64,000 nt of DNA, from NCBI GenBank assembly GCA_938036875.1, contig CALHVX010000017.1:62001-126000 (forward strand). Reading direction: 5' to 3'. Below the pieces are notes generated by a model, which ran no database searches, had not been told where the DNA came from, and saw only the letters and a program-made list of their open reading frames with translations. Below are positions 2,732-34,795 of the stretch, one piece after another; position 1 is the first letter of the stretch, and each line of letters starts with the position of its first letter. Origin of the DNA: an uncultured Pseudomonadales bacterium (GTDB lineage: Bacteria > Pseudomonadota > Gammaproteobacteria > Pseudomonadales > Azotimanducaceae). Made by a program: the position numbers and the translations under genes.

Positions 2732-3658
2732 ATGACCATCAGCGCAGGTTTAGGAATCGCAAACTTTCCCTTCGCCGATGCGCGCGGTTTTTGGCGCTGG
2801 GTTGATCTTTGTGAGAACGGCGGCCTGGACTCGCTGTGGCAAAGTGACCGCCTTATCAGCAACGAGCCAAACCTCGAGGTGATGAGCGTGATGGCTGCCC
2901 TAGCGGGTGGTACCAAACGCTTAAAATTTGGAATGAACGTTGCCAGCTTAGGTTTGCGGGATCCGGTGCTTATGGCCAAAGCCTGCGCCACCATCGATGT
3001 GCTTAGCAATGGTCGACTGCTGCCCGCGTTTGGCATTGGTAGCGCCCGGTCACGAGACTATATTGCCACCAACACCCCCACCAAAGGACGCGGTGCAAGG
3101 TCAGCAGAAGGTTTAGAGGTCATGACCCGTCTATGGTCAGAACCAGAGGTCACCTTCGCCGGTCAGTATTACCAGCTAGATGCAGCCAGCATTGCACCCC
3201 AACCGGTGCAACGGCCCTTGCCACTTTGGGTTGGCGGCTCGGCCAAACAAGCTATCGAACGCACTGCTCGTTGGGGCACCGGTTGGCAAGCGGGAATTGA
3301 GTCACCCAGCGAGGTTGCTCCGGTAATCCAGGCGATTAAAGCTGCGTTACCAACTTACCAAAGAACCATTGATGAAGACCACTTCGGCGCAGGCTTTGCC
3401 TTTAGGTTTGGCTCCGCAAAAGACGCGGTGGTGACCAACTACCAGGACTTTTTAAGCAAAAGGCTACAAAAAGATCCCGCAGACTTTATGGCTGTGGGCA
3501 ATACAAGCGACATCCTGGCCTTGGCAACTAAGTTTCATCAAGCTGGGGTACACAAGTTCATCTTGCGCCCCCTTGCGGTTGACGCCGATGATGTTTTGCA
3601 CCAAACCAAACTCTTTATCGAGCAAGCGCTACCCGGATTTAAGTCGATTGGTGCCTAA
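2732..3658 (+). CDS. LLM-class (luciferase-like) flavin/F420-dependent oxidoreductase
   Basis: This is a 308-residue TIM-barrel enzyme of the bacterial luciferase-like superfamily. The typical core is present: an early 'WVDLCENGGLDSLWQSDR' strand-helix unit, KRLKFGMNVASLGLRDPVLMAK (the 'xG..V.....r.P..lA' element), the 'LSNGRLLPAFGIG' glycine motif, and a later 'PLPLWVGGSAKQAIERTARWG' segment that often lines the cofactor phosphate site. Members use FMNH2 or F420H2 to hydroxylate or reduce small organics; the substrate is unknown. The ATG is preceded by AAGGA at a spacing of about 9. The stop overlaps the stop of the convergent LLM gene by 4 bp. The location directly before the F420 operon makes F420 the likely cofactor, by inference. 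Confidence 0.85.
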   Translation: MTISAGLGIANFPFADARGFWRWVDLCENGGLDSLWQSDRLISNEPNLEVMSVMAALAGGTKRLKFGMNVASLGLRDPVLMAKACATIDVLSNGRLLPAFGIGSARSRDYIATNTPTKGRGARSAEGLEVMTRLWSEPEVTFAGQYYQLDAASIAPQPVQRPLPLWVGGSAKQAIERTARWGTGWQAGIESPSEVAPVIQAIKAALPTYQRTIDEDHFGAGFAFRFGSAKDAVVTNYQDFLSKRLQKDPADFMAVGNTSDILALATKFHQAGVHKFILRPLAVDADDVLHQTKLFIEQALPGFKSIGA

Positions 3659-4569
3659 CCCCGCATGGATCCCAAAAATTCTAGGGTCCGGGCGTAAGCG
3701 CCGTCTTCAACATCCATAATGGCGGCGTTGAAGTGGGTGACACCCATATCTTCTAAGCGTTTGATCTCACCACGAAGCCGATTTTCATCGCCCACAATGG
3801 CAATGTCTGCTGGGCCCGCCGCACCTTCGCGATCCAACATGGCACGATAGCTGGGCAGTTGGCCGTAGATGGTTAGATTTTCAGCAATCTTGGCTTTAGC
3901 TGCATCGATATTGCTGGTCAAGGCTATTGGAAAACCACCGACCACTTTCGGATCGGGTTTACCAGCGGCTGCAGCAGCACCGTTAAGCTGCTTAATAATG
4001 TGGCCTTCCATCGTTTTTGGCCCCACCATCCAAGTGTTGGTGCCATCCGCTACCTCACCGGCCAGCTTCAACATGATCGGACCCAACCCTGCGATAACCA
4101 CCGGCACATTGTCCGCCCCGGGTATGTCGAGCTGAACGCCATTGACCTGGTAATGCTCCCCGTTGAACGCAACCGCCTCACCATGCAGCAAAGGGATCAG
4201 GACATTCAGATATTCCCGCATGTGCCGCGCCGGCTTGTCGTAGGAAAAGCCCAACATGTCTTCGATGACCACCTTGTGTGACAAGCCGATACCCAACACA
4301 AAGCGATTGTTTGCCGCAGCAGCCGTGGTGAGCGCTTGCTGGGCCAGCGCGGTTGGATGGCGCGGGTAAGTGGGTGTGACCGCCGTGCCAACACCAATAC
4401 GTTTGGTTTCTCGCCCGATGATGCCAAGGGTGGTGATGGCATCAAAAGAGAAGATATTGGACAGCCAAACATCGTCAAGCCCGGCCTGCTCCACGTTTTG
4501 CGCCATTCCAACCACGTCATCTATGGTTGCCCTGGTGCCATCTGCCCCTATCATTACCCCAATTCGCAT
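3655..4569 (-). CDS. LLM-class F420-dependent oxidoreductase (MSMEG_4879-like)
   Basis: A 304-residue luciferase-like protein. It begins MRIGVMIGADGTRATIDDVV and carries KRIGVGTAVTPTYPRHPTALA (typical of mycobacterial-type F420 LLM enzymes), NNRFVLGIGLSHKVVIEDMLG, and a late IVGDENRLRGEIKRLEDMGV element that matches the 'G....v...l..l...GvT' end of the barrel. A good GGGGAG site lies 5 bp before the ATG. It is transcribed away from the F420 operon (start 4569; npdG start 4762), so the two could share a divergent control region of about 190 bp. The sequence resembles the TIGR03564-type subfamily; the substrate is not identifiable. Confidence 0.85.
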   Translation of the reverse strand: MRIGVMIGADGTRATIDDVVGMAQNVEQAGLDDVWLSNIFSFDAITTLGIIGRETKRIGVGTAVTPTYPRHPTALAQQALTTAAAANNRFVLGIGLSHKVVIEDMLGFSYDKPARHMREYLNVLIPLLHGEAVAFNGEHYQVNGVQLDIPGADNVPVVIAGLGPIMLKLAGEVADGTNTWMVGPKTMEGHIIKQLNGAAAAAGKPDPKVVGGFPIALTSNIDAAKAKIAENLTIYGQLPSYRAMLDREGAAGPADIAIVGDENRLRGEIKRLEDMGVTHFNAAIMDVEDGAYARTLEFLGSMRG

Positions 4570-4761
4570 GCTTACTCCCCTCTCCTAGATCAAATTTAAC
4601 GTAAAAATTTCGCTGCATCGTTCACCAAGCACGCCAGCAACGCAACCGGCCCTATTGGGCGGTCATTTGGGTATCAGCAACACAGCACAAGCACTAGCAG
4701 CAAATTGAACCACAAACCGGCATAATCGACGGCTTTTCGACCTATAGACATTGAGGCACAC

Positions 4762-5424
4762 ATGGCACAAGACACCATCGCAATTCTCGGCGGCACCGGC
4801 GATCTCGGTACCGGACTAGCAATCCGCTGGGCCAAGGCGGGACACAAGATCATTATCGGCTCCCGTACCCTAGAGAAAGCTGAAACCGCAGTCACTAACC
4901 TGCAAAAAACTAGCCCAGACACACCGGCTCAAGCTATGGAAAACGGCGACGCGGCGGCAGCTGGCGACATCGTGGTGCTCACCGTGCCAGCAGATCACCA
5001 GCTATCGACCCTAGATAGCGTTCGCGACAGCCTGAAGGGCAAGATCCTCATCGACGTCACCGTACCTTTGGTTCCACCCAAGGTTGGCACCGTCCAGTTG
5101 CCCCCCGAAGGTAGCGCTGGCAAGCGGGCTCAAGACCTCTTGGGCGACGACGTTATGGTGGTTACCGCCTTCCAAAACATCGCGGCCCATTTGCTGCAAG
5201 AAGACGTCAAGATCGAGTGCGACGTGTTGATTGCTGGCAACAAAAAAGCGGCGCGCGACAGGGTGATGGAGCTAGTTGAAGAAGCTGGCATGAACGGCTG
5301 GCACGCTGGTCCTATCGAGAACTCGGCGGCCGCTGAAGCGCTGACCTCTATCTTGATTCAAATCAACCGCAAACACGACATCAGCCATTCTGGCATTAAA
5401 GTTGTGGGTCAAGCTGACCACTAG
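4762..5424 (+). CDS. npdG: F420H2:NADP+ oxidoreductase (F420-dependent NADP reductase)
   Basis: This 220-residue protein transfers hydride between NADP(H) and coenzyme F420. In bacteria it usually makes F420H2 from NADPH. The N-terminal Rossmann motif is ILGGTGDLGTGLAIRWA (residues 8-24), followed by IIIGSRTLEKAE, the Arg-containing NADP-phosphate pocket. Later 'DIVVLTVPADH', 'ILIDVTVPLVPPK' and the helical C-terminal region with ENSAAAEALTSILIQIN match the Fno/NpdG family. Length is normal (about 210-230). It is the first gene of the F420 operon: its TAG stop overlaps the GTG start of cofE (TAGTG), so the electron-supply gene is translationally coupled to cofactor synthesis. Also called fno. 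Confidence 0.93.
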   Translation: MAQDTIAILGGTGDLGTGLAIRWAKAGHKIIIGSRTLEKAETAVTNLQKTSPDTPAQAMENGDAAAAGDIVVLTVPADHQLSTLDSVRDSLKGKILIDVTVPLVPPKVGTVQLPPEGSAGKRAQDLLGDDVMVVTAFQNIAAHLLQEDVKIECDVLIAGNKKAARDRVMELVEEAGMNGWHAGPIENSAAAEALTSILIQINRKHDISHSGIKVVGQADH

Positions 5425-6197
5425 TGTCTAGCTTCAGGGTAACCCCAGTTCCCGGCATGCCCCTAGTGGTGGCCGGGGACAACTTGGCTGAGCAAATCTG
5501 CACCGCGCTAGCAGCACAGAACATTACTCTGGGCAGCGGAGACATTGTGTGCGTTGCCCAAAAAGTGGTCTCCAAGGCAGAAGGGCAATTGATCCCGCTC
5601 GCCTCGGTAACCCCTTCTGAAGAAGCGCTGGCGCTGGCAGCAGAAACCGACAAGGACCCCCGCTTAGTGCAGCTCATTTTGAATGAGTCCACCGATATAC
5701 TGCGTAAACGCCCTGGGGTTCTCATCGTGCGCCATCGCCTAGGGATGGTTGGCGCGAACGCGGGCATTGATCAATCGAATATTGAACATGAGGGAGGCGA
5801 AGCCGCCCTGCTGTTGCCGGTTGCACCAGATGAGTCCGCCAAAGGTTTGCAGCAAAGCCTACAAAAGACCTTCGGCGTTGGCTTAGGCGTGGTTATCACC
5901 GACAGCCACAATCGACCTTGGCGACTTGGCACCATCGGTGCGGCCATTGGTTGCGCCGGCTTAGAAGTACTAGAGGATCATCGCGGCGGCCAAGATATGT
6001 ACGGGCGCGAACTCAAGGTGACCTTAATCAACCGCGCCGATGCCATCGCCGGCGCTGCTACTTTGGTGATGGGTGAAACCATCGAAAAGATTCCACTAGC
6101 CGTGGTCAGCGGCTTACCCTTAGCAGATCCCGACTTTGCAGCAACCCAGTCGGCAGCAATGATTAACCGACCTTTAGCCGAGGACTTGTTTACCTAA
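5424..6197 (+). CDS. cofE: Coenzyme F420-0:L-glutamate ligase
   Basis: A 257-residue GTP-dependent ligase that adds L-glutamates to F420-0. Family motifs are LGSGDIVCVAQKVVSKAEGQ near the N-terminus, VITDSHNRPWRLGTIGAAIG (canonical 'GRPWRxGxxGxAIG') and GGQDMYGRELKVT followed by ADAIAGAATLVMGE. It has the length of archaeal CofE and lacks the C-terminal nitroreductase-like domain of actinobacterial FbiB (about 450 aa), so it should only ligate glutamate. The start is the GTG at 5424, which overlaps the npdG stop. The stop TAA overlaps the ATG of cofD (TAATG). The number of glutamates added cannot be read from the sequence. Confidence 0.93.
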   Translation: MSSFRVTPVPGMPLVVAGDNLAEQICTALAAQNITLGSGDIVCVAQKVVSKAEGQLIPLASVTPSEEALALAAETDKDPRLVQLILNESTDILRKRPGVLIVRHRLGMVGANAGIDQSNIEHEGGEAALLLPVAPDESAKGLQQSLQKTFGVGLGVVITDSHNRPWRLGTIGAAIGCAGLEVLEDHRGGQDMYGRELKVTLINRADAIAGAATLVMGETIEKIPLAVVSGLPLADPDFAATQSAAMINRPLAEDLFT

Positions 6198-7144
6198 TGA
6201 GCCAGCAAAATCCAAAAATTTTGGCGCTTACCGGCGGGGTCGGTGGTGCCAAGTTAGCGTTGGGGCTAGCCAATTTACTAACGCCAGATCAACTGATGCT
6301 GGCCGTTAACACCGGTGATGATTTCGAGCATTTTGGTTTGCATATCTCACCCGATGTAGACACCTTGACCTACACCTTAAGCTCCCTGGCGAACACCGAA
6401 TACGGCTGGGGTCGCCAAGATGAAAGCTGGGCCTGCATGGAGTCGATCGCGCAGTTGGGCGGCGAGACTTGGTTCAACTTAGGGGATCGCGACCTGGCCC
6501 TGCATCTGCGTCGTACCGAGATGCTGCGCCAAGGCCAAACCCTTAGCCAAGCCACCACGGCAATTGCACAAGCTTTGGGTATCCGACACCCGATTGTCCC
6601 GATGAGCGATGACAGCGTGCGCACCCAAGTGCATACCAAAGATGGGGAGCTACCTTTTCAACACTACTTTGTGCGCGATGCGTGCAAACCCAAAGTCACC
6701 GGCTTTGAATTTACTGGCATCGAGCAAGCGAGCGTTCAGCCCCAGCTGCTGGAATGGCTGCAGGATGCCACCGCGGTCATCATTTGCCCGTCTAACCCCT
6801 TTGTCTCCGTTGACCCCATATTGAACTTGCCCGGCATGCGCGAAGCGCTGGCCAACTCACCAGCTAAAGTCATTGCGGTATCCCCCATTGTTGGTGGCAG
6901 TGCCATCAAAGGACCAACCGCAAAAATGATGCGCGAGCTCAACATTCCGTGCATGGCGGATGAAGTGGCCAACCACTACGGAGGCTTGCTCGACGGTTTT
7001 GTTCTCGATGAGCTGGACAAATATCTCCATGGCGAGCTGAACGTCACCACCGCGGTAGCGCAATCCGTGATGACTTCACTCGACGACAAGATCAATCTAG
7101 CTCGCACCACGTTGGCGTTTGCTGACGATCTCAACGGAATCTAG
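6197..7144 (+). CDS. cofD: 2-phospho-L-lactate transferase (F420-0 synthase)
   Basis: This 315-residue enzyme transfers the phospho-acid moiety from a guanylylated intermediate (lactyl-, enolpyruvyl- or glyceryl-2-diphospho-guanosine) to FO, giving F420-0 or its analogue. It begins ILALTGGVGGAKLALGLA, the CofD/UPF0052 phosphate-binding loop. It contains LMLAVNTGDDFEHFGLHISPD (FO- and Mg-binding Asp residues), GDRDLALHLRR, PMSDDSVRTQV and VIICPSNPFVSVDPIL, all hallmarks of the family. Length equals the usual 305-330. Translation is coupled to cofE through the TAATG overlap. Which donor it accepts depends on CofC and is unresolved here. Confidence 0.95.
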   Translation: MSQQNPKILALTGGVGGAKLALGLANLLTPDQLMLAVNTGDDFEHFGLHISPDVDTLTYTLSSLANTEYGWGRQDESWACMESIAQLGGETWFNLGDRDLALHLRRTEMLRQGQTLSQATTAIAQALGIRHPIVPMSDDSVRTQVHTKDGELPFQHYFVRDACKPKVTGFEFTGIEQASVQPQLLEWLQDATAVIICPSNPFVSVDPILNLPGMREALANSPAKVIAVSPIVGGSAIKGPTAKMMRELNIPCMADEVANHYGGLLDGFVLDELDKYLHGELNVTTAVAQSVMTSLDDKINLARTTLAFADDLNGI

Positions 7145-7147
7145 GTC

Positions 7148-7840
7148 ATGTGGGCGCTGGTCCCGTTAAAATCCCTGGGCAGCGCCAAGCAGCGTCTGTC
7201 GAACACCCTGTCCAGCGCGGAACGCCGGGACCTCATGCTGGCGATGGTGCGTGACGTTCTAACCGCGCTGAAACAAGCACAGCAACTAACCGGGGTGTTG
7301 ATCGTGTCCCGCACCAACGAGTCCATTGCTCTGGCCCAGGCATTTAGCACCGAGCGGTACGCGGAAAGCGAAGGCGGCAATCTATCTGACGCCCTCACCG
7401 AAGCAGCAGACTATGCCACCAACATACTAGGCGCCCGGGGGGTCATGATTATCCCTGGGGACGTCCCGCTGCTCACCGCCGCCGAGATTGACGCCATGCT
7501 AGAGCAACACGAGCAGGTCACCGTGGTACCGGATAGCGACCACGTTGGCACCAATTGCCTGGTCTGTAGCCCGGCAAATTGTCTTACATTTCAGTTTGAT
7601 GGGCGCTCCTTCACCCCTCATCTGGAATCCGCCGTGATGGCCAATTTGGACCCAAAAGTCTTTGAAAGCCCCGGTTTTGGGCTCGATATAGACACGCCAG
7701 CTGACCTCACAACCCTCCTAACCCGCCATCCAGGCAGCCAAACAGGCACATTCTTAGACAAATCGGGTATAGCCCGGCGTCTGAAAGGTCAGGATAATGG
7801 GGCTACTGAACGAATTCGGGGAACCGATGCTAAATCTTGA
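7148..7840 (+). CDS. cofC: 2-phospho-L-lactate (or PEP/3-PG) guanylyltransferase
   Basis: This 230-residue nucleotidyltransferase activates a three-carbon phospho-acid with GTP for CofD. The N-terminal GTP-binding segment WALVPLKSLGSAKQRLS matches the family 'PvK....aKsRL'. The metal/GTP site MIIPGDVPLLTAAEI (canonical GDvPLl) and 'GTNCLVCSP' also match, as does the C-terminal FGLDIDTPADLTTLL. Archaeal CofC uses 2-phospho-L-lactate, mycobacterial FbiD uses PEP, and some proteobacterial enzymes use 3-phosphoglycerate; the sequence alone does not settle this case. It starts 3 bp after cofD and overlaps the start of fbiC by 14 or 44 bp, depending on which fbiC start is used. About 25 C-terminal residues after the conserved core look disordered. 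Confidence 0.92.
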   Translation: MWALVPLKSLGSAKQRLSNTLSSAERRDLMLAMVRDVLTALKQAQQLTGVLIVSRTNESIALAQAFSTERYAESEGGNLSDALTEAADYATNILGARGVMIIPGDVPLLTAAEIDAMLEQHEQVTVVPDSDHVGTNCLVCSPANCLTFQFDGRSFTPHLESAVMANLDPKVFESPGFGLDIDTPADLTTLLTRHPGSQTGTFLDKSGIARRLKGQDNGATERIRGTDAKS

Positions 7841-10310
7841 TCAAGTGCTCGCTGACTGCATAGATGGCCAACCTCTAACCCGTGCTGATGCACTGGCTCT
7901 GGCAAACGAAGAAGACACTGCAACGCTTGCAGCGGCAGCGGCAACGCTACGCGATCAAGGGTTCCACAATGTGGTGACCTACTCACGCAAAGTGTTCATC
8001 CCACTGACCCACTTATGTCGTGACGTCTGCCATTACTGCACCTTTGCTGAGGTCCCACGCAAGGTCCAAGCACCCTACATGAGCCTTGAGCAAGTGCTTG
8101 AGGTCGCGCGCGAAGGCGCCGCCATGGGCTGCAAAGAAGCGCTATTTACCTTGGGCGAAAAGCCTGAGCTACGTTACAAAGCGGCGCGTGAAGCCTTGGC
8201 CGAGATGGGCTTCGACTCAACCTTGGACTACTTGCTACATTGCGCCGAGGCGGTTTTCAAAGAAACCGGCCTGCTACCCCATCTAAACCCAGGCAATCTA
8301 ACGCCTGAAGAGCTGACACGCCTGAAAGCGGTGTCTCCGTCTATGGGCATCATGTTGGAGTCCGCCTCCGATCGTCTGTGCGAAAAGGGTATGCCCCACT
8401 ACGGTTCTCCAGACAAAGTACCCGCGGTACGCCTACAAACCTTAGACGATGCTGGCGCCGCAAAAATTCCGTTTACCACCGGCATTTTGATCGGCATTGG
8501 TGAAACTCGCCTGGAACGCATCGAATCGTTGCTAGCCATACGTGACGTGCACAACCGCCACGGGCACGTACAAGAGATCATCGTGCAGAACTTCCGCGCT
8601 AAAGAAGACACCAAGATGTCTCAAGCGCCGGAGCCGGACCTAAACGAGCTGCTGTGGACCATTGCCATAGCGCGCCTTATTTTTGGATCCAGCATGAGCG
8701 TCCAAGCACCACCCAACTTAAGCCCAGGTGTGTTGCAGCAAATTGTGAATGCAGGCATTAACGACTGGGGTGGTGTGTCACCGGTTACCCCAGACTTCGT
8801 GAACCCAGAAGCACCTTGGCCACACCTAGAAGATCTGGCACGCGAGACGCGTTCTTGCGGTAAACACCTGCACGAACGGCTAACGGTTTATCCAAGCTAT
8901 GTTCAGGATTTAGATACTTGGGTACACGAAGATCTGCATATTGCGGTGCTAGACTTTGTCGACGCCGACGGTTTTCCGCGCACAGACGCCTGGGCACCCG
9001 GTGATCCAAATACACCCCCACCAACCGAATACCTAGAGGCTATTACCACCGCTCCACGTCAAGTCTCGGCCGACATCACCTCCATCTTGGCAAAAGCGGC
9101 TAAACACGAAGACCTCACCGAGGCGGAAGTGGTTCGCTTGTTCCAAGCACGCGGAGACGACTTCAATGCGGTCACCCAAGCGGCAAACGACGCAAGGGCT
9201 CAACAAAACGGCAATGTGGTTAGCTATGTTGTAAACCGCAACATCAACTACACCAACGTTTGCTACTTCAAGTGCCAGTTTTGCGCTTTCTCAAAGGGCA
9301 AGCTGTCCGAGAACCTACGTGGCCGACCTTACGATTTGTCCCACGAAGAGATTCAACGCAGAACCCAAGAAGCCTGGGCACGTGGCGCCACCGAAGTTTG
9401 CATGCAAGGTGGCATCCACCCGGACTACACCGGCGATACCTACACCGAAATTTTGAAGGCAGTCAAAGCGGCAGTGCCCGAGATGCACATTCATGCCTTC
9501 TCACCGCTTGAAGTTTGGCAGGGTGCAGCAACCTTAGAAATTGATCTCCCAACGTACTTGGCGCAAGTGAAAGCAGCAGGTCTAGACACGCTACCCGGCA
9601 CTGCAGCAGAGATATTGGATGACGAGGTCCGGCAAATCATCTGCGCTGACAAGATCAACACCCAGCAATGGCTTGACGTGATGGAGGCGAGCCACAAAGC
9701 CGGCTTCAAAACCACCGCTACCATCATGTACGGCCATGTCGAAAAGCCCGTGCACTGGGCGCGTCACTTGCTGAGAATCCGCAATCTGCAGCAAAAGACG
9801 GGTGGTTTCACCGAATTTGTCCCACTGCCCTTTGTCCATATGGAAGCGCCCATGTACTTAAAGGGCAAAGCGCGCAAAGGACCCACCTTCCGCGAGGCAA
9901 TCTTGATGCACAGCGTGGCACGGCTAACCTTGTGCCCACACATCCCGAATATTCAAACCAGTTGGGTGAAGATGGGTCACGAAGGTGTGGTGGCTTGCTT
10001 TAAAGCGGGCTGCAACGACATGGGCGGCACCTTGATGAACGAGAGCATCTCCCGCGCTGCGGGCACCTTGCACGGCCAAGAAACGTCTCCAGAGGAGATG
10101 ATTGAAATGATCGAAGCCGCGGGTCGAACCCCCAAACAACGCAACACACTCTATGGCGACGTGTCTGATGAGCGTATTGCCGCAGGCAAAGATGCAATGG
10201 AGATAACCGATATCATCAATACCCCGGCGCGCAAGTACGAACGCAAACGCAAAGGTCCATTGATCAAACCCGGGCTTATCGATTTAGCAGACGCATCCGG
10301 TCAGAAGTAG
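7797..10310 (+). CDS. fbiC: FO synthase, fused CofG-CofH (FbiC)
   Basis: An 837-residue double radical-SAM enzyme that makes the deazaflavin FO from tyrosine and 5-amino-6-ribitylamino-uracil. The N-terminal CofG half (about residues 45-380) carries CRDVCHYC (Cys74, Cys78, Cys81). The CofH half (about 430-800) carries CYFKCQFC (Cys489, Cys493, Cys496), preceded by RNINYTNV as in CofH. Other matches are 'GFHNVVTYSRKVFIPLTH', 'EVCMQGGIHPDYTG' and the 'NIQTSWVKMGHEG' element. Two starts are possible: ATG 7797, or ATG 7827, which has GGGGAA just upstream and a more typical N-terminus (MLNLDQVLAD). Either way the gene overlaps cofC and ends the operon. The fused form is the actinobacterial arrangement; archaea and cyanobacteria encode CofG and CofH separately. 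Confidence 0.96.
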   Translation: MGLLNEFGEPMLNLDQVLADCIDGQPLTRADALALANEEDTATLAAAAATLRDQGFHNVVTYSRKVFIPLTHLCRDVCHYCTFAEVPRKVQAPYMSLEQVLEVAREGAAMGCKEALFTLGEKPELRYKAAREALAEMGFDSTLDYLLHCAEAVFKETGLLPHLNPGNLTPEELTRLKAVSPSMGIMLESASDRLCEKGMPHYGSPDKVPAVRLQTLDDAGAAKIPFTTGILIGIGETRLERIESLLAIRDVHNRHGHVQEIIVQNFRAKEDTKMSQAPEPDLNELLWTIAIARLIFGSSMSVQAPPNLSPGVLQQIVNAGINDWGGVSPVTPDFVNPEAPWPHLEDLARETRSCGKHLHERLTVYPSYVQDLDTWVHEDLHIAVLDFVDADGFPRTDAWAPGDPNTPPPTEYLEAITTAPRQVSADITSILAKAAKHEDLTEAEVVRLFQARGDDFNAVTQAANDARAQQNGNVVSYVVNRNINYTNVCYFKCQFCAFSKGKLSENLRGRPYDLSHEEIQRRTQEAWARGATEVCMQGGIHPDYTGDTYTEILKAVKAAVPEMHIHAFSPLEVWQGAATLEIDLPTYLAQVKAAGLDTLPGTAAEILDDEVRQIICADKINTQQWLDVMEASHKAGFKTTATIMYGHVEKPVHWARHLLRIRNLQQKTGGFTEFVPLPFVHMEAPMYLKGKARKGPTFREAILMHSVARLTLCPHIPNIQTSWVKMGHEGVVACFKAGCNDMGGTLMNESISRAAGTLHGQETSPEEMIEMIEAAGRTPKQRNTLYGDVSDERIAAGKDAMEITDIINTPARKYERKRKGPLIKPGLIDLADASGQK

Positions 10311-15766: not shown

Positions 15767-15771
15767 GCTTG

Positions 15772-16161: not shown

Positions 16162-16193
16162 TTGTGGTGCCTAAAGATAAAATTCCAGCAAAC

Positions 16194-16697
16194 TTAAGTG
16201 GATAACTTGCTACCCGGTGCATAGTAGCGCTGGTGCCATATGCCATCACCCGCTTCATCTGCGACTGGCATCCGCCAAGTAGACAGTTTTGCAGTAGCCA
16301 GGTTCAACCGGAACAAAGCTCTTGGCTGATCGATGGTGTTTTCGATATAGGCATCCGCTTCGGCGGCAGGCACATAACGCCCCGCAATACGACGGTAGAG
16401 GTCACGCCATTGCGCATCCGCGCCCACATCGTGCAGCAACTCAGCGCTGCCCTCAGCCAACACTTTACGATACGGCAATGGTTGCTCATCAATGCATAAG
16501 GCGCAGCGCGAATCGCGACGCAAGCAATCGAACCACTCCGACTTAGCTCTTGGGGTGAAGTAGATGGCATCGTCTTCGTGGGCAAACCAAATGGGTGTCA
16601 CTAGCGGCGAGCCATCTTCGCGGGTGACCGCAATACGCATGACCACCCCGGGCTCAGCAAGGAAACTATCGCGTTCGCTTAACGTTAATTTAGGCAA
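16194..16697 (-). CDS. PPOX-fold (pyridoxamine-phosphate-oxidase-like) flavin/F420-binding protein
   Basis: A 167-residue split-barrel protein. The N-terminal 'RIAVTREDGSPLVTPIWFAHEDDAIYFTPRAKSEW' region (positions 21-55) has the 'DG.P...P.WF...dg.i.f.t...s.k' pattern of PPOX-class FMN/F420 enzymes. It is followed by CALCIDEQPLPYRKVLAEGSAEL. Members bind FMN, F420 or haem, and several actinobacterial ones use F420H2. Given the F420 operon 6 kb away, an F420-dependent role is possible but unproven. Translation begins at TTG 16697 inside the end of the desaturase gene (8 bp overlap), so the pair is translationally coupled. Confidence 0.75.
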   Translation of the reverse strand: MPKLTLSERDSFLAEPGVVMRIAVTREDGSPLVTPIWFAHEDDAIYFTPRAKSEWFDCLRRDSRCALCIDEQPLPYRKVLAEGSAELLHDVGADAQWRDLYRRIAGRYVPAAEADAYIENTIDQPRALFRLNLATAKLSTWRMPVADEAGDGIWHQRYYAPGSKLST

Positions 16698-25552: not shown

Positions 25553-26560
25553 TTAGCCAGCCCGCAAGCTCGCGATGATTTCCTGACGCTGCTGATCGTC
25601 GGAGATAGGAAAACTAGCTGACGTTCTATCCGCGAAGTCACCATAGCGTTTCAGCATTTGCGGCGCAATCTCATTCGGCTCACCCACCACGGCAAATTCG
25701 GCCAAAATATCATCCGTGATCAGCGTCCCCATCTCCTGCCAGCGCCCTTGCTTCGACATCGCATTCAACTCAGATTGCAACTCACCGACGCCAATGCTCT
25801 CCAAAACCCCGCGATAAGCCGGTGTTGACCCGTAGAAGGCAATGCGCTCCGTAATTGCCTTTTTGCTTGCGGCCATCTCAGCGTCATCACGACCCGTGAC
25901 AACCATGGGCGAATACGAAATCTCAAAGTTGTCACGCTTACGGCCACCCTTGGCTAGCCCAGCCTCAATGGCTGGCAAGGTGGTGGCCCGAATAAACGGC
26001 AAGGTGCTGAACGGGTGAATAATCATCCCATCAGCAACTTCCCCGGATACCTCGGTCATCTTTGGACCAACCGCAGCCAAGATCACCTTGGGCGCTCCGA
26101 ACTCTTTGTTTTCTGGCGTAAATGCTGGGGTCATCAGCGTGTGCTTGTAATGCTTACCCACAAACTGCAGAGGCTCACCCTCATACCAATTGGCCCAAAT
26201 GGCTCGCATGGCCAGCACCAGCTCACGCATTTGTGCTGCTGGAGCCCCCCACTGCATGCTGAAGCGTTTGGTGATGTGCGGTTTGATCTGAGAACCCAGA
26301 CCCAACGTAAATCGGCCTTTGCTGTACGCGTTGAGATCGTGCGCAATGTTGGCCAAGTTCATGGGTGAGCGGGCAAAAGCCACGGCGATGGAGGTGGCAA
26401 TCTCCAGCTTGCTGCTGTGCTCCGCAGCCAGCAGCAACGGAAAGAACGGATCGTGATTCATCTCCGCTGTGCGCACACCATCGTAACCGGCCGCCTCAAG
26501 CTTCTTAACTTTGTCGGCTATACCTTCTAGCTTGTTGGGTAACCCAGCATCTACTTTCAT
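25553..26560 (-). CDS. LLM-class F420-dependent oxidoreductase, tandem paralogue B
   Basis: A 335-residue luciferase-like protein that resembles the TIGR03617-type actinobacterial F420 oxidoreductases. It contains YDGVRTAEMNHDPFFPLLLA, LEIATSIAVAFARSPMNLA, 'KGRFTLGLGSQIKPHITKRF', EVADGMIIHPFST and IAFYGSTPAYRGVLESIG. It is a clear paralogue of the next gene (26593-27600): same length, no long gaps and many identical blocks. AGGAG stands upstream of the ATG. The two genes are 32 bp apart and on one strand, so this is a duplication kept in an operon. Substrate unknown; F420 use is inferred from family and context. Confidence 0.87.
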   Translation of the reverse strand: MKVDAGLPNKLEGIADKVKKLEAAGYDGVRTAEMNHDPFFPLLLAAEHSSKLEIATSIAVAFARSPMNLANIAHDLNAYSKGRFTLGLGSQIKPHITKRFSMQWGAPAAQMRELVLAMRAIWANWYEGEPLQFVGKHYKHTLMTPAFTPENKEFGAPKVILAAVGPKMTEVSGEVADGMIIHPFSTLPFIRATTLPAIEAGLAKGGRKRDNFEISYSPMVVTGRDDAEMAASKKAITERIAFYGSTPAYRGVLESIGVGELQSELNAMSKQGRWQEMGTLITDDILAEFAVVGEPNEIAPQMLKRYGDFADRTSASFPISDDQQRQEIIASLRAG

Positions 26561-26592: not shown

Positions 26593-27600
26593 CTAGCCTG
26601 CGTTCAAGTCTTTGATGATTTTTAACCGGTCAGCCTTGGGAATAGTGGCGTAGGCTGCTGAGGTACGATCCACCAAATCGCCGTAGCGTGACGTAATCTG
26701 ACCAGCAATTGTGTTTGGCTCACCAACGACCGCAAACTCCTTGAGAATATCGGGGGTAATCAAGTTACCCATCTCTTCCCAACGCCCCTGCTTTGACATG
26801 GTATTTAGCTCAGGCTGCAACTCACCTGCACCAATGCTATCCAACACAGGCTTGTAAGCAGGCGTTGAGCCGTAAAACGCAATTTGCTTTTGCGCTGCTG
26901 CAGTAGCTTCCGCCATCTCTTCTTCCGTTTGACCGGTTACAACAAACACGGGGTAGCTGATCTCAAAATCAGCACGGGACTTACCACCTTTGGCAAAACC
27001 ACGCTCCAGCGCAGGCAAAGTAACTTCTCGTATGTACCGCTCGGTGGTGAACGCATGGATGATCACGCCATCGGCAACTTCACCGGCAACCTCGGTCATC
27101 AACGGTCCCACGGCCGCCAAAAATACACGTGGCGCACCGTATTGCGTATCCGTTGGTGTGAACATCGGCGTCATCAAGGTATGGGTATAAAATTTGCCGG
27201 TAAACTCTAACGGCGTACCCTCATGCCAGTTGCCCCAAATCGCGCGCATCGCAAGGATGTATTCGCGCATGCGAGGCGCTGGGTTCGACCAAGGCATGCT
27301 AAAACGCTTGGTGATGTGTGGACGAATTTGCGAGCCTAAGCCCAACACAAAACGCCCTTTGCTTGCCGAGTTCAGGTCGTGCCCAATATTCGCCAAGGTC
27401 ATGGGTGAGCGACTAAATGCCACCGCAATACTGGTCACAAGGTCCACGCGCTTGGTGTGCTGAGCCGCAACCAATAGGGGGAAAAAGGGGTCGTGGGATG
27501 TCTCAGCCGTCATTACGCCGGAATACCCCATCTCTTCAAGCTCGGCCGCTTGTGCACCTACTTTGTCTAATTCAAATCCAACGCCGCCATCAACTTTCAT
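26593..27600 (-). CDS. LLM-class F420-dependent oxidoreductase, tandem paralogue A
   Basis: A 335-residue paralogue of the downstream gene. Shared blocks include HDPFFPLL, TSIAVAF-RSPM-LANI-HDLN, KGRF-LGLGSQI-PHITKRFSM, AMRAIW-NW-EG, HTLMTP-FTP, EVADG-IIH and IAFYGSTPAY. Divergence is concentrated at the N-terminus, after the TLPA-E element and at the C-terminus. GGGGAAGG lies just upstream of the ATG. Its leader (27601-27717) is extremely A-rich on the coding strand. It follows a histidine-phosphatase gene by 117 bp on the same strand and may be read from the upstream LLM/enoyl-CoA hydratase promoter. Confidence 0.87.
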   Translation of the reverse strand: MKVDGGVGFELDKVGAQAAELEEMGYSGVMTAETSHDPFFPLLVAAQHTKRVDLVTSIAVAFSRSPMTLANIGHDLNSASKGRFVLGLGSQIRPHITKRFSMPWSNPAPRMREYILAMRAIWGNWHEGTPLEFTGKFYTHTLMTPMFTPTDTQYGAPRVFLAAVGPLMTEVAGEVADGVIIHAFTTERYIREVTLPALERGFAKGGKSRADFEISYPVFVVTGQTEEEMAEATAAAQKQIAFYGSTPAYKPVLDSIGAGELQPELNTMSKQGRWEEMGNLITPDILKEFAVVGEPNTIAGQITSRYGDLVDRTSAAYATIPKADRLKIIKDLNAG

Positions 27601-27717: not shown

Positions 27718-28392
27718 CTACTCGGACTGGGGCTTCAGCGCATCAGGTCGAACCACAGTGCCTTGTGCCGCAGTACGCAGCAAACCATCGTAAGGCCCCA
27801 CACCGTCTAAGAAGTAGCTAGGGCGAATATCTGTGGCCGTAAACTCCAACGCATAGAACAGCTCGTTAGGGTGACGCACGCGATCTGCTTCACCCGGCGT
27901 GAGCGCCAAAAAATGGGTCATGATGGCGCGAGACACCACACCGTGAGTCACCAGCACCACCGACTCGTCCGCCGTTGAGTACAAGCTCTCCAAAAAATCT
28001 TCAATCCGGCTCAGCATGTCTGGCAGATTCTCACCTTCCGGTGGGCGGTGGTTATAAGGATCCAAACCACGTTCGCGCCAATGCTGTGGGTACTTGGCCT
28101 CAATCTCATCAATGGTGAGACCCGACCACTCGCCACAGTCTCGCTCGAGCAGCACATCGTTAACTTGTATCTGCGCAGACAAAAACGAGTTCAGTAGATG
28201 CGCGGTTTCTTGGGTCCGCCCGGAAGGCGAAACCACCATACGATTGGCACCACCTAGCTCACGCAGCTTGCGCCCGTGTCCAAGTACCTGTTCTTTACCC
28301 AGCTCGGTCAAAGGGGAATCCATCCGCCCTTGCATCCGTTGCTCTACATTCCATTGCGTTTGACCGTGGCGCACCACGTAAAGTGTTTTCAA
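27718..28392 (-). CDS. Histidine phosphatase family protein (phosphoglycerate-mutase-like)
   Basis: A 224-residue protein that begins TLYVVRHGQTQWNVEQRMQG. RHG holds the phospho-accepting His, and the following Arg and Asn are phosphate ligands. DSPLTELGKEQ, VVSPSGRTQETA, LLERDCGEWSGLT (acid-base Glu) and VVLVTHGVVSRAI (second His) complete the site. Relatives dephosphorylate sugar phosphates, nucleotides or phosphoglycerate. It starts at TTG 28392, directly after the TGA of the enoyl-CoA hydratase gene (zero gap), so translation is coupled. Confidence 0.88.
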   Translation of the reverse strand: MKTLYVVRHGQTQWNVEQRMQGRMDSPLTELGKEQVLGHGRKLRELGGANRMVVSPSGRTQETAHLLNSFLSAQIQVNDVLLERDCGEWSGLTIDEIEAKYPQHWRERGLDPYNHRPPEGENLPDMLSRIEDFLESLYSTADESVVLVTHGVVSRAIMTHFLALTPGEADRVRHPNELFYALEFTATDIRPSYFLDGVGPYDGLLRTAAQGTVVRPDALKPQSE

Positions 28393-29226
28393 TCAGTCCC
28401 CCGACGTTCGGTAATCACCGAATTCCTTGTCACGCTGCGACAGCGCTTGGGTTAATCCTTTGCGTATCTCCGCAAAGTGGTCTTGTGCGGTTTTGGTAAA
28501 CATCGCTAGCTGTTGCATCTCGGTGCCTGCGCGAATGCCTGCGCGAACCCCCATGGCATCCATCTGTCGATGTACCGCTCGTTTGTTGATTTGTTGCACA
28601 TCCGTTGGCACCTTCGCGATGCGCGAAGCAACCTTCAGCACCTCCGCTTCAAGTTGCTCCGCCGCAAAAGCTCGGTTCGCAAACCCAGACTCCGCCGCCT
28701 CACTACCCGACATATGGTCACCGGTTAACATCAGCTCCATCGCCCGACGCATACCAACAATCCATGGGTAAAACTGGTTATCTGGCGGGCTAATAGTGCG
28801 CACCACCGGATAACCGATCATGGCATCTTCAGCCACGTAGACTAAATCGCATGCGGTTGCCAACTCAGTGCCGCCAGCCAAACAGTAGCCGTGCACCTGA
28901 GCGATGATCGGTTTGGCCATATCCCACATGCGAAAAAAACCATCAACCACGTGCCGGGGCCAGTTGCTTAGACCACCAGGTGTGTAAAACGGCTGGCCCT
29001 GAGCAGAATTGCTGGTTAGATCGTACCCGGCCGAAAAACAGGGTCCGGCACCACGAATGATCATGCAACGAATGCTGTCGTCCTGATCTGCGGTTTCTAA
29101 CGCATGAAACAGCTCAGACCGTAACTCGTTAGATAGCGGGTTACGTTTGTCAGGTCGATTTAAGGTAATGCGTCGAACCGCTGGGAGCGGTTCATCAACA
29201 ATTATCTTGGTGTATTCCGAAGTCAT
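28393..29226 (-). CDS. Enoyl-CoA hydratase/isomerase family protein
   Basis: This 277-residue crotonase-fold protein has the oxyanion-hole segments CFSAGYDLTSN (first NH) and CLAGGTELATACDLVY (second NH). It starts with a typical VRRITLNRPDKRNPLS strand. The usual second catalytic Glu position is hard to place: the segment after the second oxyanion motif reads MIGYPVVRTISPPDNQFYPW, so the reaction may not be simple hydration. It lies between an LLM gene (8 bp gap) and a phosphatase gene (0 bp gap), forming an LLM-crotonase-phosphatase operon. AGGTG precedes the ATG. The acyl-CoA substrate is unknown. Confidence 0.87.
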   Translation of the reverse strand: MTSEYTKIIVDEPLPAVRRITLNRPDKRNPLSNELRSELFHALETADQDDSIRCMIIRGAGPCFSAGYDLTSNSAQGQPFYTPGGLSNWPRHVVDGFFRMWDMAKPIIAQVHGYCLAGGTELATACDLVYVAEDAMIGYPVVRTISPPDNQFYPWIVGMRRAMELMLTGDHMSGSEAAESGFANRAFAAEQLEAEVLKVASRIAKVPTDVQQINKRAVHRQMDAMGVRAGIRAGTEMQQLAMFTKTAQDHFAEIRKGLTQALSQRDKEFGDYRTSGD

Positions 29227-29234: not shown

Positions 29235-30254
29235 CTATTTTAGTTGAAACTTATCGCCCGTGAACGCATTGAAGGTGCGCTCGAGATCGTTAGCATCCGC
29301 CGCCATGGGGGCAACAATATGGGTGTGTACACCACCATCCGCGTCGGCCTGGATCCGCTCACGCACTTCGTCTTCGGTGCCAATGATGGCAATTTCATCA
29401 ATCATTTCATCACTCATGGCGCTGGCGGTCTTTTCTCGATCTTTGGCAGCCCAGCCTTCGGTGATCGCCTGTGCAGCATCTTCATAGCCAGCCCAAGCCA
29501 AAAACTTGTTGTACACTGGTGTGGCGTAGTAAGGGCCAAAAGAGGCACGGAATATCGCGCGACCACGTTCCTTGTCATCGGTACAGAGCACCATGGCACG
29601 GTTCACAATCTCCACGTCTTCCCAATTCTTGCCGGCCTTTTGCGCCCCACGCTTCACCGCTTCCATCATCTTGGGTAACGCCCCTTTGGGCCAAAGGTTA
29701 AAGATCACCCCATCACCGATCTCAGCCGCCATCTCAATCATGTTTGGACGTAAGGCTGCTAGATACAGGGGCGGCGGGTTAGCGCAAGGCGCCTGGCGAT
29801 AGCCCTTGCTATATAGGGTATCTAAATCGGTAAAGTTCGACTTTTCGCCGGTAAGCATGGACCGCACCATGATGGCCGTCTCTTTGACCCGAGTTAGCGG
29901 CTTATCCAGCGGGATGCCATTGAACTGCCCCATAATCGTCTGGCTAGAGGAACCCAACCCCATAATAAAACGGTTCGGCATAACCTGAGAAATCACGTCA
30001 GCGGTGGCCGCCAACACGGCTGGGGTCCGGGTATAGACGGGCGTGACAGCAATGCCCACACGGATACTCTTGGTGTGGTGGGCAATGGCTGCTACCTGGG
30101 TCAGGCTATCTGGTGCGCCAGAGTCCGCAAACCATGCGTCCGCGTAGCCATTTTCTTCCGCCCATTGGATGCGCTCAATGGTGGATGCTAATTTTGGTCC
30201 GGCGGGCAAAGTAACCGCCATTCGTTTTGTTGGTGCCTGGTTTGTAGTTGACAC
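29235..30254 (-). CDS. LLM-class flavin/F420-dependent oxidoreductase
   Basis: A 339-residue luciferase-like protein. Features include RIQWAEENGYADAWFADSG, KSIRVGIAVTPVYTRTPAVLA, MPNRFIMGLGSSSQTIMGQF, APCANPPPLYLAALRPNMIEMA, EIGDGVIFNLWPKGALPKM and the C-terminal EIAIIGTEDEVRERIQ. It differs clearly from the paired paralogues downstream and is closer in the N-terminal half to the protein at 3655. It starts at GTG 30254 with GGAGAGGG upstream. It is the first gene of the LLM-crotonase-phosphatase operon and is divergent from the APH-like gene at 30489. Confidence 0.87.
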   Translation of the reverse strand: MSTTNQAPTKRMAVTLPAGPKLASTIERIQWAEENGYADAWFADSGAPDSLTQVAAIAHHTKSIRVGIAVTPVYTRTPAVLAATADVISQVMPNRFIMGLGSSSQTIMGQFNGIPLDKPLTRVKETAIMVRSMLTGEKSNFTDLDTLYSKGYRQAPCANPPPLYLAALRPNMIEMAAEIGDGVIFNLWPKGALPKMMEAVKRGAQKAGKNWEDVEIVNRAMVLCTDDKERGRAIFRASFGPYYATPVYNKFLAWAGYEDAAQAITEGWAAKDREKTASAMSDEMIDEIAIIGTEDEVRERIQADADGGVHTHIVAPMAADANDLERTFNAFTGDKFQLK

Positions 30255-30488
30255 GGAGGCCCTCTCCTGAATTTTAGATGCAAAAGCCCATTTTCAGGGG
30301 ATAACCCTCGCGATTGTACGCGCCAGTTACCACCCCCAGGCTCCACCCTCTAGCCTCGCACTTACTAGCGCCTAAGATCAAGGTAGTCGTGCTCCATGGA
30401 AAAGTGCTAGCAGCACGCTGGAAAGAGACTAGCCGCCAGCTAAACCGCCTGTGTATCCTTCGCCCCAATATTGAATCGGAACCTGAGC

Positions 30489-31571
30489 ATGAGCCCTACC
30501 CCTAGCGATACACCTGAATCCCATAGCGATGTCGAGCTGACCGCCGTCAGGGCAGCCCACCAGTTCGATGAGCCTGCGCTTCACGCCTACATGCTCAGCG
30601 AGGTCGCCGGCTATACGGGCGAACTCAAGGTAAGCCAATTTGAGGGTGGCCAATCCAACCCGACCTTCTTGCTAGAGGCCGGCGGCACCCGCTATGTGCT
30701 GCGCAAGCAACCGCCGGGTGAATTGCTACCCAGCGCGCACCAGGTTGACCGTGAATACAGAGTGATGCATGCCCTGCGCGACACGCCCGTACCCGTGCCA
30801 AAAATGTACGCCCTGTGCGAAGACACCAGCATTATCGGCACCAAGTTCTACATTATGGAGATGGTAGAAGGCCGCTTGTTCAACGAAACTGCCCTACCCA
30901 ACCTACCCAAAGCCGATCAAAAGGCCATCTATCTGGATCTAGCGCGAGTCTTGGCAGAATTGCACAAGGTGGATCCCATCGCTGCAGGTCTGGAAACCTT
31001 CGGCCGCCCAGGTAACTACTATGAGCGCCAAATTGGGCGTTGGACCAAGCAGTACCAAGCCAGCAAAACCGAGCAAATTGACGCTATGGATCGGTTAATG
31101 GCTTGGTTACCCAACAACATACCCAGCGAAACCCAAACCGTCATTGCCCACGGTGACTATCGGGTGGGTAATGTCTTGATCCATCCAACCGAGCCTAAGA
31201 TTGTCGCCGTACTCGATTGGGAGCTATCCACCTTGGGTGACGGTCTCGCTGATGTAGGCTACGTATGTCAGGATTATCATGGCGATTCTTACACCGACGA
31301 AGGATTGTCCAAGGTCGATTTCGCTACGTCAGGCATTCCTACCGAAGCAGAATTTGTTGCCGAGTACTGCAAGCATGCAGGCCGCGACCCCATCGCCAAT
31401 TGGACCTTCTACATCGTCTACAACATGTTTCGTAGCGCTGGCATTATTCAGGGCGTCTACAAACGCGGCCTAGATGGCAACGCCAGCTCAGAAAAGGCGT
31501 TGGAATATGTAGACGCAGCACGGCAACGTTCCGAACGCGCGGTTGTATTGCTGGACGAGGCAGGACTTTAA
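30489..31571 (+). CDS. Aminoglycoside-phosphotransferase-like kinase (ACAD10/11-type)
   Basis: A 360-residue protein with the APH/choline-kinase fold. It shows VSQFEGGQSNPTFLLEAGG (nucleotide loop), YVLRKQPPGELL (catalytic Lys), the Brenner motif IAHGDYRVGNVLIHP (catalytic Asp, Asn) and AVLDWELSTLGD (Mg-binding Asp). It belongs to the branch found beside acyl-CoA dehydrogenases and fused to them in eukaryotic ACAD10/11, where it phosphorylates 4-hydroxyacyl-CoA. Resistance to aminoglycosides is not implied. ATG 30489 is chosen; TTG 30471 is an in-frame alternative. No acyl-CoA dehydrogenase gene is in this window. Confidence 0.87.
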   Translation: MSPTPSDTPESHSDVELTAVRAAHQFDEPALHAYMLSEVAGYTGELKVSQFEGGQSNPTFLLEAGGTRYVLRKQPPGELLPSAHQVDREYRVMHALRDTPVPVPKMYALCEDTSIIGTKFYIMEMVEGRLFNETALPNLPKADQKAIYLDLARVLAELHKVDPIAAGLETFGRPGNYYERQIGRWTKQYQASKTEQIDAMDRLMAWLPNNIPSETQTVIAHGDYRVGNVLIHPTEPKIVAVLDWELSTLGDGLADVGYVCQDYHGDSYTDEGLSKVDFATSGIPTEAEFVAEYCKHAGRDPIANWTFYIVYNMFRSAGIIQGVYKRGLDGNASSEKALEYVDAARQRSERAVVLLDEAGL

Positions 31572-33662: not shown

Positions 33663-33684
33663 AGGTGCTTGGGACCAAGCACCT
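33663..33684. repeat. Perfect 10-bp inverted repeat
   Basis: AGGTGCTTGG and its complement CCAAGCACCT are separated by GA, in the gap between the convergent peroxidase and LLM genes. A second, weaker hairpin (TGCCAG...CTGGCA, 33693-33716) follows. Neither has a T-tract, so a role as bidirectional transcript-end structure is only suggested. Confidence 0.55.
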
Positions 33685-33742
33685 TAGGAGCATGCCAGAG
33701 CAAAGCTGCCCTGGCAGGTTAGCGCTTTCGATCGCTATATCG

Positions 33743-34795
33743 CTAGAGCATAGACTCCGCCAACAGCTCCAACGCTTGCGGTTGGCCAGAGCCAATCAGC
33801 ATGCTAGAAACATGGCCTTTCTTGCCCGCATCACGCCAGCGCTGCAGTCGATCTTTGATCCGATCTGCTGGACCCACCAAGTGGCAAGCGTCAATCAGCT
33901 CCGCTGGAACGGCAGCCATCGCTTCGTCTTTACGGCCTGCTAGGAACAAATCTTGAATCTTGATCGCGGCTTCTTCAAAACCTAAACGCTTGGCGTAGTC
34001 GTTGTAGAAGTTCTTGTCGCGAGCACCCATGCCACCAATGTAGAGCGCCATGTTGCCGCGGATTGGCACCATACATTCTTCAACGCTATCACCCATAACG
34101 CAGCTGACAAAAGGTGCAATGTTGAACTGGCCTAAGTTTTTGTCGACGCCGGTAGCAGCTTGAGCCTTAGCAAAACCTTTGTTGATCGGCTCTTCAAACA
34201 CGTGATACTGCTCAGGGTCCATCCACACAGGGAAGAATCCATCCGCCACCTCAGCAGATGCGGCAACGCCCGCTGGCGTTATCGTGGCGGCATACACAGG
34301 AATGTCTTCTTCGCAGTGCAGAATGCTTTTAAGCGGCTTACCCAAACCCGTTGCACCAGGACCGGTGTAAGGCATTTGGTACATGTTGCCATCAAAGGTT
34401 GCAGGCCCTTCGCGGCGGAAGATCTGCTTCATAATGGAGATGTACTCTTTGAGACGCGTGACCGGCTTGCCGTAAGGGGTGCCATGCCAGCCCTCAACCA
34501 CTTGGGGACCCGAGGCGCCAACGCCACAGATGAAACGACCGCCAGAGAGTTCCGCTAGGGTCATTGCGGTCATTGCCGCCATAGCCGGTGTTCGCGCAGG
34601 CATCTGCATAATGGCGGTTCCCACCTTCATCTTGGTCGTATTTGCCAGGATCCAGGTTGCCGGGGTAACGGCATCAGAACCATAGGCTTCAGCGGTCCAG
34701 ATGCTGTCATAGCCAAGGTTTTCTGCGTGTTGCACCTGCTTAATGGGGATATTGATTTTGCGGCCTGAATAGCCGGAGATGAGTCCTAACTTCAT
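33743..34795 (-). CDS. LLM-class F420-dependent oxidoreductase (Rv3520c-like)
   Basis: A 350-residue luciferase-like enzyme. It begins MKLGLISGYSGRKINIPIKQ and has NLGYDSIWTAEAYGSDAVTP, KVGTAIMQMPARTPAMAAM, SGGRFICGVGASGPQVVEGW and HGTPYGKPVTRLKEYI. This is the typical sequence of the mycobacterial Rv3520c-like F420 group. Later 'KSILHCEEDIPVYAATITPAG' and 'EVADGFFPVWMDPEQYHVF' form the barrel end. AAGGG lies before the ATG. It is the sixth LLM gene in the window. No operon partner is close (the next minus-strand gene upstream is 160 bp away). Confidence 0.9.
   Translation of the reverse strand: MKLGLISGYSGRKINIPIKQVQHAENLGYDSIWTAEAYGSDAVTPATWILANTTKMKVGTAIMQMPARTPAMAAMTAMTLAELSGGRFICGVGASGPQVVEGWHGTPYGKPVTRLKEYISIMKQIFRREGPATFDGNMYQMPYTGPGATGLGKPLKSILHCEEDIPVYAATITPAGVAASAEVADGFFPVWMDPEQYHVFEEPINKGFAKAQAATGVDKNLGQFNIAPFVSCVMGDSVEECMVPIRGNMALYIGGMGARDKNFYNDYAKRLGFEEAAIKIQDLFLAGRKDEAMAAVPAELIDACHLVGPADRIKDRLQRWRDAGKKGHVSSMLIGSGQPQALELLAESML

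Follow-up and report, generated by a model that had tools for sequence, protein, structure and literature searches.

The 64,000-nucleotide stretch of DNA analysed here (the window) comes from an uncultured Pseudomonadales bacterium of the family Azotimanducaceae. The source assembly, GCA_938036875.1, comprises 4.74 Mb in 190 contigs, and the window lies inside the 233-kb contig CALHVX010000017.1 (C17; positions 62,001 to 126,000). It carries an apparent operon for the biosynthesis of coenzyme F420 and six genes for luciferase-like oxidoreductases (LLMs). An initial annotation had placed the operon at 4762-10310 and the LLM genes at 2732, 3655, 25553, 26593, 29235 and 33743. All the open reading frames (ORFs) that it named were found where it had put them, all six LLM genes belong to the LLM family by profile, and the operon, with the order npdG/fno-cofE-cofD-cofC-fbiC, is confirmed by five of five genes scoring over their cut-offs. 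Family calls are NCBIfam profile bit scores set against the curated cut-offs. The genes of the operon are the following:

4762..5424, + strand: npdG/fno, NADPH-dependent F420 reductase (TIGR01915, 205.5 bits, cut-off 149.8)
5424..6197, + strand: cofE, F420-0:glutamate ligase of 257 aa, without the FbiB C-terminal reductase domain (TIGR01916, 255.6 bits, cut-off 180.65)
6197..7144, + strand: cofD/fbiA, phosphoacid-to-FO transferase (TIGR01819, 287.5 bits, cut-off 257.45)
7148..7840, + strand: cofC/fbiD, GTP-dependent phosphoacid guanylyltransferase whose specificity position holds Asp (TIGR03552, 158.5 bits, cut-off 105)
7797..10310, + strand: fbiC, fused CofG-CofH FO synthase (NF006687, 1163.9 bits, cut-off 1018)

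With CofC, CofD, CofE and an FO synthase (CofG+CofH) each over the curated cut-off, the F420 biosynthesis set is complete, and NpdG/Fno adds an F420-reducing enzyme to it. The cofD product is the sole PF01933 match in the whole genome, and both halves of FbiC contain the radical-SAM CxxxCxxC motif in translation (CRDVCHYC and CYFKCQFC). The genes are tightly packed: cofE starts at the last base of npdG and cofD at the last base of cofE, and fbiC overlaps cofC. A scan for promoters and terminators gave signals no more than in shuffled sequences. No Fgd was found in the genome at an E-value of 1e-30, so the reduction of F420 probably proceeds via NADPH. By gene content, the operon is a member of the F420 biosynthesis family, and F420 production is predicted for its host.

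The six LLM genes flank the operon upstream and lie in a second group downstream of it:

2732..3658, + strand: LLM1, luciferase-like oxidoreductase (TIGR03854, 161.4 bits, cut-off 295.6; TIGR03619, 149.2 bits, cut-off 166.9; below both)
3655..4569, - strand: LLM2, TIGR03564 family, divergent from the operon (322.5 bits, cut-off 234)
25553..26560, - strand: LLM3, TIGR03617 family (447.6 bits, cut-off 278)
26593..27600, - strand: LLM4, TIGR03617 family (471 bits, cut-off 278)
29235..30254, - strand: LLM5, nearest to TIGR03841 (202.7 bits, below the cut-off of 213.65)
33743..34795, - strand: LLM6, TIGR03559 (Rv3520c) family (372.8 bits, cut-off 335)

Four of the six (LLM2, LLM3, LLM4 and LLM6) pass the cut-off of an F420-named subfamily. 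The best solved relative of the LLM2, LLM4, LLM5 and LLM6 queries is Mer, the methylene-tetrahydromethanopterin reductase, which is an F420 enzyme. Mer also leads among the solved relatives of LLM1, with putative flavin mononucleotide (FMN)-type luciferase-like enzymes close behind; the predicted structure of LLM1 is of low confidence (pLDDT 65.7). At the genome-wide density of 50 LLM matches per 4.74 Mb, a 32-kb stretch should hold about 0.3, against the six observed, a post hoc comparison for a stretch picked for its LLMs.

The gene order was compared among related loci. A scan of named genome contigs for FbiC yielded at least 586 loci, the best 80 of which are 63–78% identical to the window FbiC; together with the window and 10 plasmid-borne outgroups they make up a tree of 91 rows. 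The window falls into a 30-row clade with 29 other loci (clade A; SH-like approximate likelihood ratio test support, SH-aLRT, 96), and a separate clade of 10 loci (clade B) has a support of 100. Of the 29 clade-A loci, 17 extend at least 1.2 kb upstream of the operon and 12 are too short to be judged; in 13 of the 17, LLM2 precedes npdG in divergent orientation. LLM1 orthologues, 62–71% identical, lie upstream of the operon in 10 clade-A loci. In clade B, the LLM genes are found downstream of fbiC: LLM5 is the first of them in 10 of 10 loci, LLM6 follows in nine, and LLM4 accompanies both in four. One genome of the same family, G643, keeps the order of the window (LLM2-npdG-cofE-cofD-cofC-fbiC-MFS, desaturase, MBL1, FATP, LLM3, LLM5, kinase-like gene, LLM6 and DsbA), in a cluster without LLM4 and the crotonase gene, and another, G584, shows the clade-B layout.

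The association extends to the whole order, where CofD (counted when over the cut-off, just below it or split across two contigs) is present in 87 of 293 genomes. TIGR03564 occurs in 23 of these 293 genomes, 22 of them with CofD (Fisher 5e-12), TIGR03617 in 60 (58 with CofD; 1e-36) and TIGR03559 in 70 (68 with CofD; 3e-46), the Fisher values being computed over genomes as independent units with relatedness ignored. At least one of the three was found in 73 genomes, 71 with CofD, which represent 17 family codes, all having CofD; at strict limits, none was found in 14 control genomes. The link between LLMs and F420 is real, as seen in the adjacency in two clades and in the co-occurrence with CofD across the order.

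The genome as a whole contains 50 LLM-family matches, a few being contig-edge fragments, and one CofD. The 44 near-full-length LLM ORFs were analysed; three of the 47 collected were left out (one 1440-aa multidomain protein and two contig-edge fragments), and a further three short matches fell outside the collected set. The median identity of the 44 to their best in-genome paralogue is only 35% (at least 60% in four), and the set is therefore not a recent burst. At an E-value of 1e-45, their F420-named matches are TIGR03619 (9), TIGR03559 (7), TIGR03617 (5), TIGR03564 (4) and others, and their FMN-type matches are alkanesulfonate monooxygenase (2), SfnG (1) and luciferase-like (1). In a comparison of 15 genomes hand-picked from the 293 of the order (E-value 1e-25), the F420-positive genomes of the window's own family carry 41, 31, 44, 10 and 25 LLMs, and the family member G564 carries 19; six F420-negative genomes have 1, 1, 0, 0, 2 and 1. 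The LLM expansion characterises the family and at least one genome outside it; not every F420 maker shows it. An LLM domain also lies within a 1440-aa protein, possibly an assembly-line enzyme (L115, C44:76892-87824 of the same genome), which resembles the acyl-CoA synthetase at 54141 of the window (24% identity). The genome further holds five matches over cut-off to PF04075 (F420H2 quinone reductase), with none in the 14 control genomes; excerpts of a 2021 review (PMC8498797) list FDORs for Actinobacteria and Chloroflexi. The five matches are the following:

C164:2760-3158, PF04075 match
C135:22611-22976, PF04075 match
C31:26458-26667, PF04075 match
C99:1-282, PF04075 match
C141:7161-7370, PF04075 match

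It is very probable, judging from sequence comparison, that the operon makes coenzyme F420 and that many of the LLM proteins transfer hydride with F420 as cofactor. In this scheme, FbiC would make FO, CofC would activate a three-carbon phosphoacid using GTP, CofD would couple the activated acid to FO, and CofE would attach the glutamates. NpdG/Fno would hand a hydride from NADPH to F420, and the resulting F420H2 would feed LLM reductases that are numerous, diverse and of old standing. Among them, LLM5, LLM4/3 and LLM6 form a conserved core close to a fatty-acyl-CoA synthetase gene and would act most likely on lipophilic or CoA-activated compounds, speculative as these substrates are. Which reactions the LLMs catalyse, and with which cofactor, is presumed from what is known of the family.

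Several observations weigh against this picture. LLM1 and LLM5 stay below every curated subfamily cut-off. The 'F420' in the TIGR names is itself partly inferred, which makes the naming partly circular and leaves the co-occurrence as the independent evidence. None of the three LLM subfamilies is present in 16 of the 87 CofD genomes, and the F420-positive genomes of other families carry 2, 2 and 16 LLMs, two of the three having only two. Conversely, G564 (97% complete) has three and G650 (78% complete) two of the subfamilies, both without CofD and without CofH over the cut-off. These two exceptions may reflect an assembly gap, loss, or use without F420, and G564 may also obtain F420 from others. 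In G564, an LLM2-like gene (43% identical to LLM2) lies on a short contig without cof genes, and the LLM cluster stands in another context; G564 (loci L162, L163 and L175) has 19 LLM genes in all and a FATP-LLM3-LLM5-LLM6 cluster. Finally, the idea of particular substrates finds weak backing genome-wide in the tally of LLM neighbours discussed below.

The genes lying among and around the LLM genes bear on these substrates:

20449..22260, + strand: FATP/FadD6-type long-chain acyl-CoA synthetase (NF006134, 718.3 bits, cut-off 625)
27718..28392, - strand: histidine phosphatase superfamily protein (PF00300), in the LLM3-5 gene run
28393..29226, - strand: crotonase/enoyl-CoA hydratase superfamily protein (NF006128, 215.7 bits, below the cut-off of 257)
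30471..31571, + strand: APH-fold kinase-like protein (matching phosphotransferase families only, all below cut-offs)
16194..16697, - strand: PPOX-fold protein, FDOR-B-like, a possible further F420 user (TIGR03618, 56.6 bits, below the cut-off of 79.05)

The initial annotation had counted a FATP-type acyl-CoA synthetase and a crotonase among the neighbours; the former is upheld by its score, the latter at the superfamily level, the curated NF006128 cut-off being missed. It had also listed an ACAD10/11-type kinase; the putative counterpart, at 30471, scores with phosphotransferase families alone and under their cut-offs. From these and other genes it had proposed a set like those of mycobacterial lipid and sterol catabolism. 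In its fuller form, this proposal sees in the island a single pathway that breaks down a sterol, terpenoid or long-chain lipid and whose steps would be the FATP ligase, the crotonase and LLM3-6, and we regard it as possible but rather doubtful. It draws on the conservation of FATP with its LLM partners: FATP, LLM3, LLM5, the kinase-like gene (between LLM5 and LLM6) and LLM6 stand together in G643 and G564. In five of the 10 clade-B loci FATP also precedes npdG by up to about 7 kb (three of the remaining loci are clipped by contig ends), and it is divergent from npdG within 2 kb in G584 and in G604, where the contig stops just past fbiC. A mycobacterial parallel is offered by Rv3520c, the name-giver of the LLM6 family, which is listed at a KstR motif in excerpts of PMC1995591. 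Against it, neither G643 nor G564 showed the crotonase gene next to its LLM cluster, and the Pfam tally of LLM neighbours is only slightly richer in catabolic families than the background, with small counts. Among 234 genes around 40 other LLM loci, ECH_1 occurs 6 times, acyl-CoA dehydrogenase 4 times and Ring_hydroxyl_A 4 times, none of which is among the 25 commonest background families, the extent of both tallies. Short-chain dehydrogenases/reductases are about as common near LLM loci (11) as in the background (7), which consists of 137 genes after the hand removal of 35 of 172, many short and some not, and so leans to longer genes.

Other neighbours are noted for completeness. A protein 49% identical to the histidine phosphatase occupies the same place in G564. 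The best solved relative of the PPOX-fold protein is 3f7e (28.8 bits), and the protein does not reach the curated TIGR03618 cut-off for FDOR-B membership. The PPOX-fold gene belongs to a run at 14024-17679, with a pyridoxal phosphate aminotransferase-fold enzyme and a desaturase-like protein, which is partly kept in six loci (L003, L015, L016, L018, L019 and L021); its first and last genes are distantly like guanitoxin GntC and GntB (130.8 against 415 and 94.6 against 380 bits, well under the cut-offs). A glucokinase gene (PF02685; 1722-2669) adjoins LLM1, and a large peroxidase-like protein, of animal heme peroxidase type by eye, is encoded between the kinase-like gene and LLM6 (31793-33616). 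The nitronate monooxygenase at 46112, so labelled in the initial annotation, lies beyond the range 2732-34795 that it had discussed; further putative acyl-CoA synthetase genes are located at 48305 and at 54141.

F420 might instead serve few users, most LLMs being FMN-dependent monooxygenases and the adjacency an inherited order without joint function; this we judge distinctly unlikely. Known FMN types do occur among the 44 LLMs, LLM1 reaches no F420 subfamily cut-off, G564 keeps its LLM genes with F420 genes not detected, and the COG2141 paralogues of SAR202 are described as flavin-dependent monooxygenases in excerpts of PMC6946804. Such an explanation is, however, at odds with the near confinement of the three window subfamilies to CofD genomes, with the recurrence of the operon-LLM adjacency in two different layouts, and with Mer being the closest solved relative of four of the six enzymes.

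As to the origin of the operon, F420 had been called patchy in Proteobacteria and usually acquired by transfer. Patchy it is in the class (CofD in 15 of 369 sampled genomes) and in the order, but not within the family of the window, where 11 of 12 sampled genomes have CofD. The best 80 FbiC loci come mostly from metagenome-assembled genomes (MAGs) of Gammaproteobacteria/Pseudomonadales, some being labelled Alphaproteobacteria and others, and clade A consists of Pseudomonadales MAGs. Actinobacterial, Thermomicrobium and most alpha- and betaproteobacterial plasmid rows are distant from the window; Rhodococcus and Nonomuraea FbiC are about 49% identical to its FbiC and sit on long branches, and a Paraburkholderia row is placed among gammaproteobacterial rows outside clade A. 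Three MAGs that bear the names Klebsiella pneumoniae, Verrucomicrobiaceae and Kuenenia (L033, L042 and L080) have F420 operons that branch among Proteobacteria; their naming or binning is doubtful. The F420 genes are not a recent arrival in this lineage: its FbiC belongs to a Pseudomonadales clade, and nearly all sampled genomes of the family have CofD. The data speak for vertical inheritance of the operon inside the gammaproteobacterial lineage; an ancient transfer into it may have come before, the FbiC tree covering the best 80 loci only. A recent acquisition of the island and its LLM users from actinobacteria, for which the mycobacterial names of the LLM subfamilies, the patchiness in the class and the F420 operons on alpha- and betaproteobacterial plasmids could be cited, is highly improbable and is rejected by the placement of FbiC in clade A and its much lower identity to actinobacterial FbiC than to the best 80, mostly gammaproteobacterial, loci.

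The CofC of the window deserves separate attention. Its closest solved relative is the 3-phosphoglycerate (3-PG) enzyme of Mycetohabitans (7p97, 91.5 bits), followed by FbiD (51.3) and M. mazei CofC (50.9). According to excerpts of a mutagenesis study (PMC8764529), the use of 3-PG is governed by S162 of Mrhiz-CofC, which corresponds to G163 in FbiD. At the 3-PG determinants M91, C95, H145 and S162 the window CofC has Leu, Leu, Val and Asp. Among the 69 CofC rows obtained (12 of the 80 loci gave none), the S162 position holds Asp in 25, Gly in 43, Asn in one and Ser or Thr in none, and in a tree built without the motif a branch (support 89, not starred) separates the Asp and Asn rows from the others. 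The isolates among the best 80 FbiC loci, of Zhongshania and Litorivivens, are outside the Asp-type clade. A 3PG-F420 route was considered and rejected by the published rule that Ser or Thr is needed at the S162 position. The variants at this position reported in the same excerpts are E, Y, G, A and T; S162E preferred 2-phospho-L-lactate and, to a lesser degree, phosphoenolpyruvate (PEP), which argues for ordinary substrates of the Asp-type CofC. Use of PEP would require a dehydro-F420 reductase; CofE lacks this domain, and the best of seven TIGR03553 matches in the genome scored 50.6 bits against a cut-off of 249.55, in a search where stand-alone FbiE may score low and T. roseum FbiE was not queried, and nitroreductase-like proteins near cof operons include no consistent gene. 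The Asp-type CofC is a new observation and a candidate CofC class of this Pseudomonadales clade. It could be imagined, as a long shot, that this enzyme stands for an additional route to the F420 side chain, in which neither PEP nor 3-PG but 2-phospho-L-lactate or some phosphoacid not yet recognised is incorporated, which would explain why no reductase turned up, and that the resulting F420 variant drives tens of LLMs.

Compared with known systems, the operon encodes the same enzymes, including a fused FbiC, as bacterial F420 biosynthesis elsewhere (mycobacterial FbiA/B/C/D; proteobacterial CofC-E and FbiC), and it shares npdG beside the cof genes with five alpha- and betaproteobacterial plasmid loci. 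Unlike in mycobacteria, its CofE has no FbiB reductase domain; going by annotation, the same is true of other Proteobacteria. It stands apart from other F420 systems in its conserved LLM partners and in having Asp in CofC where others have Gly or, in Mycetohabitans, Ser. To the 3PG-F420 pathway of the latter it is linked by the CofC score and an xGxSF loop, yet it lacks the published 3-PG determinants. The mycobacterial LLM/LLHT repertoire (Rv3520c, MSMEG_2256 and MSMEG_4879 families) includes the same subfamilies, over cut-off, whereas the host here is a gammaproteobacterium with no Fgd found. The COG2141 expansion of SAR202, as described in the excerpts cited above, likewise comprises tens of LLM paralogues per genome in large, diverse families; it belongs to another phylum, and the window genome differs in having a complete F420 operon among conserved LLM partners and LLMs that match F420-named more than monooxygenase subfamilies.

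Besides Actinobacteria, the groups with biochemical proof of F420 production are, according to excerpts of the 2021 review, Chloroflexi, Alpha- and Betaproteobacteria, and the review calls for experimental work on the role of F420 in these three groups; Gammaproteobacteria go unmentioned in its main text, the producers table aside. In the open-licence literature, judged by title and the start of the abstract, no paper on a gammaproteobacterial, Pseudomonadales or Halieaceae F420 system was found. The cluster described here is, on sequence grounds, a putative gammaproteobacterial variant of the F420 system with conserved LLM partners and a candidate Asp-type CofC class. Operon-bearing isolates are at hand in Zhongshania and Litorivivens. 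A large group of bacteria, known mostly from MAGs, seems to possess an F420 system that serves tens of probable users, together with a small set of conserved partner enzymes. Since the operon and the abundance of LLM genes recur in most of the close relatives sampled, a little-studied Gram-negative F420 lifestyle becomes testable.

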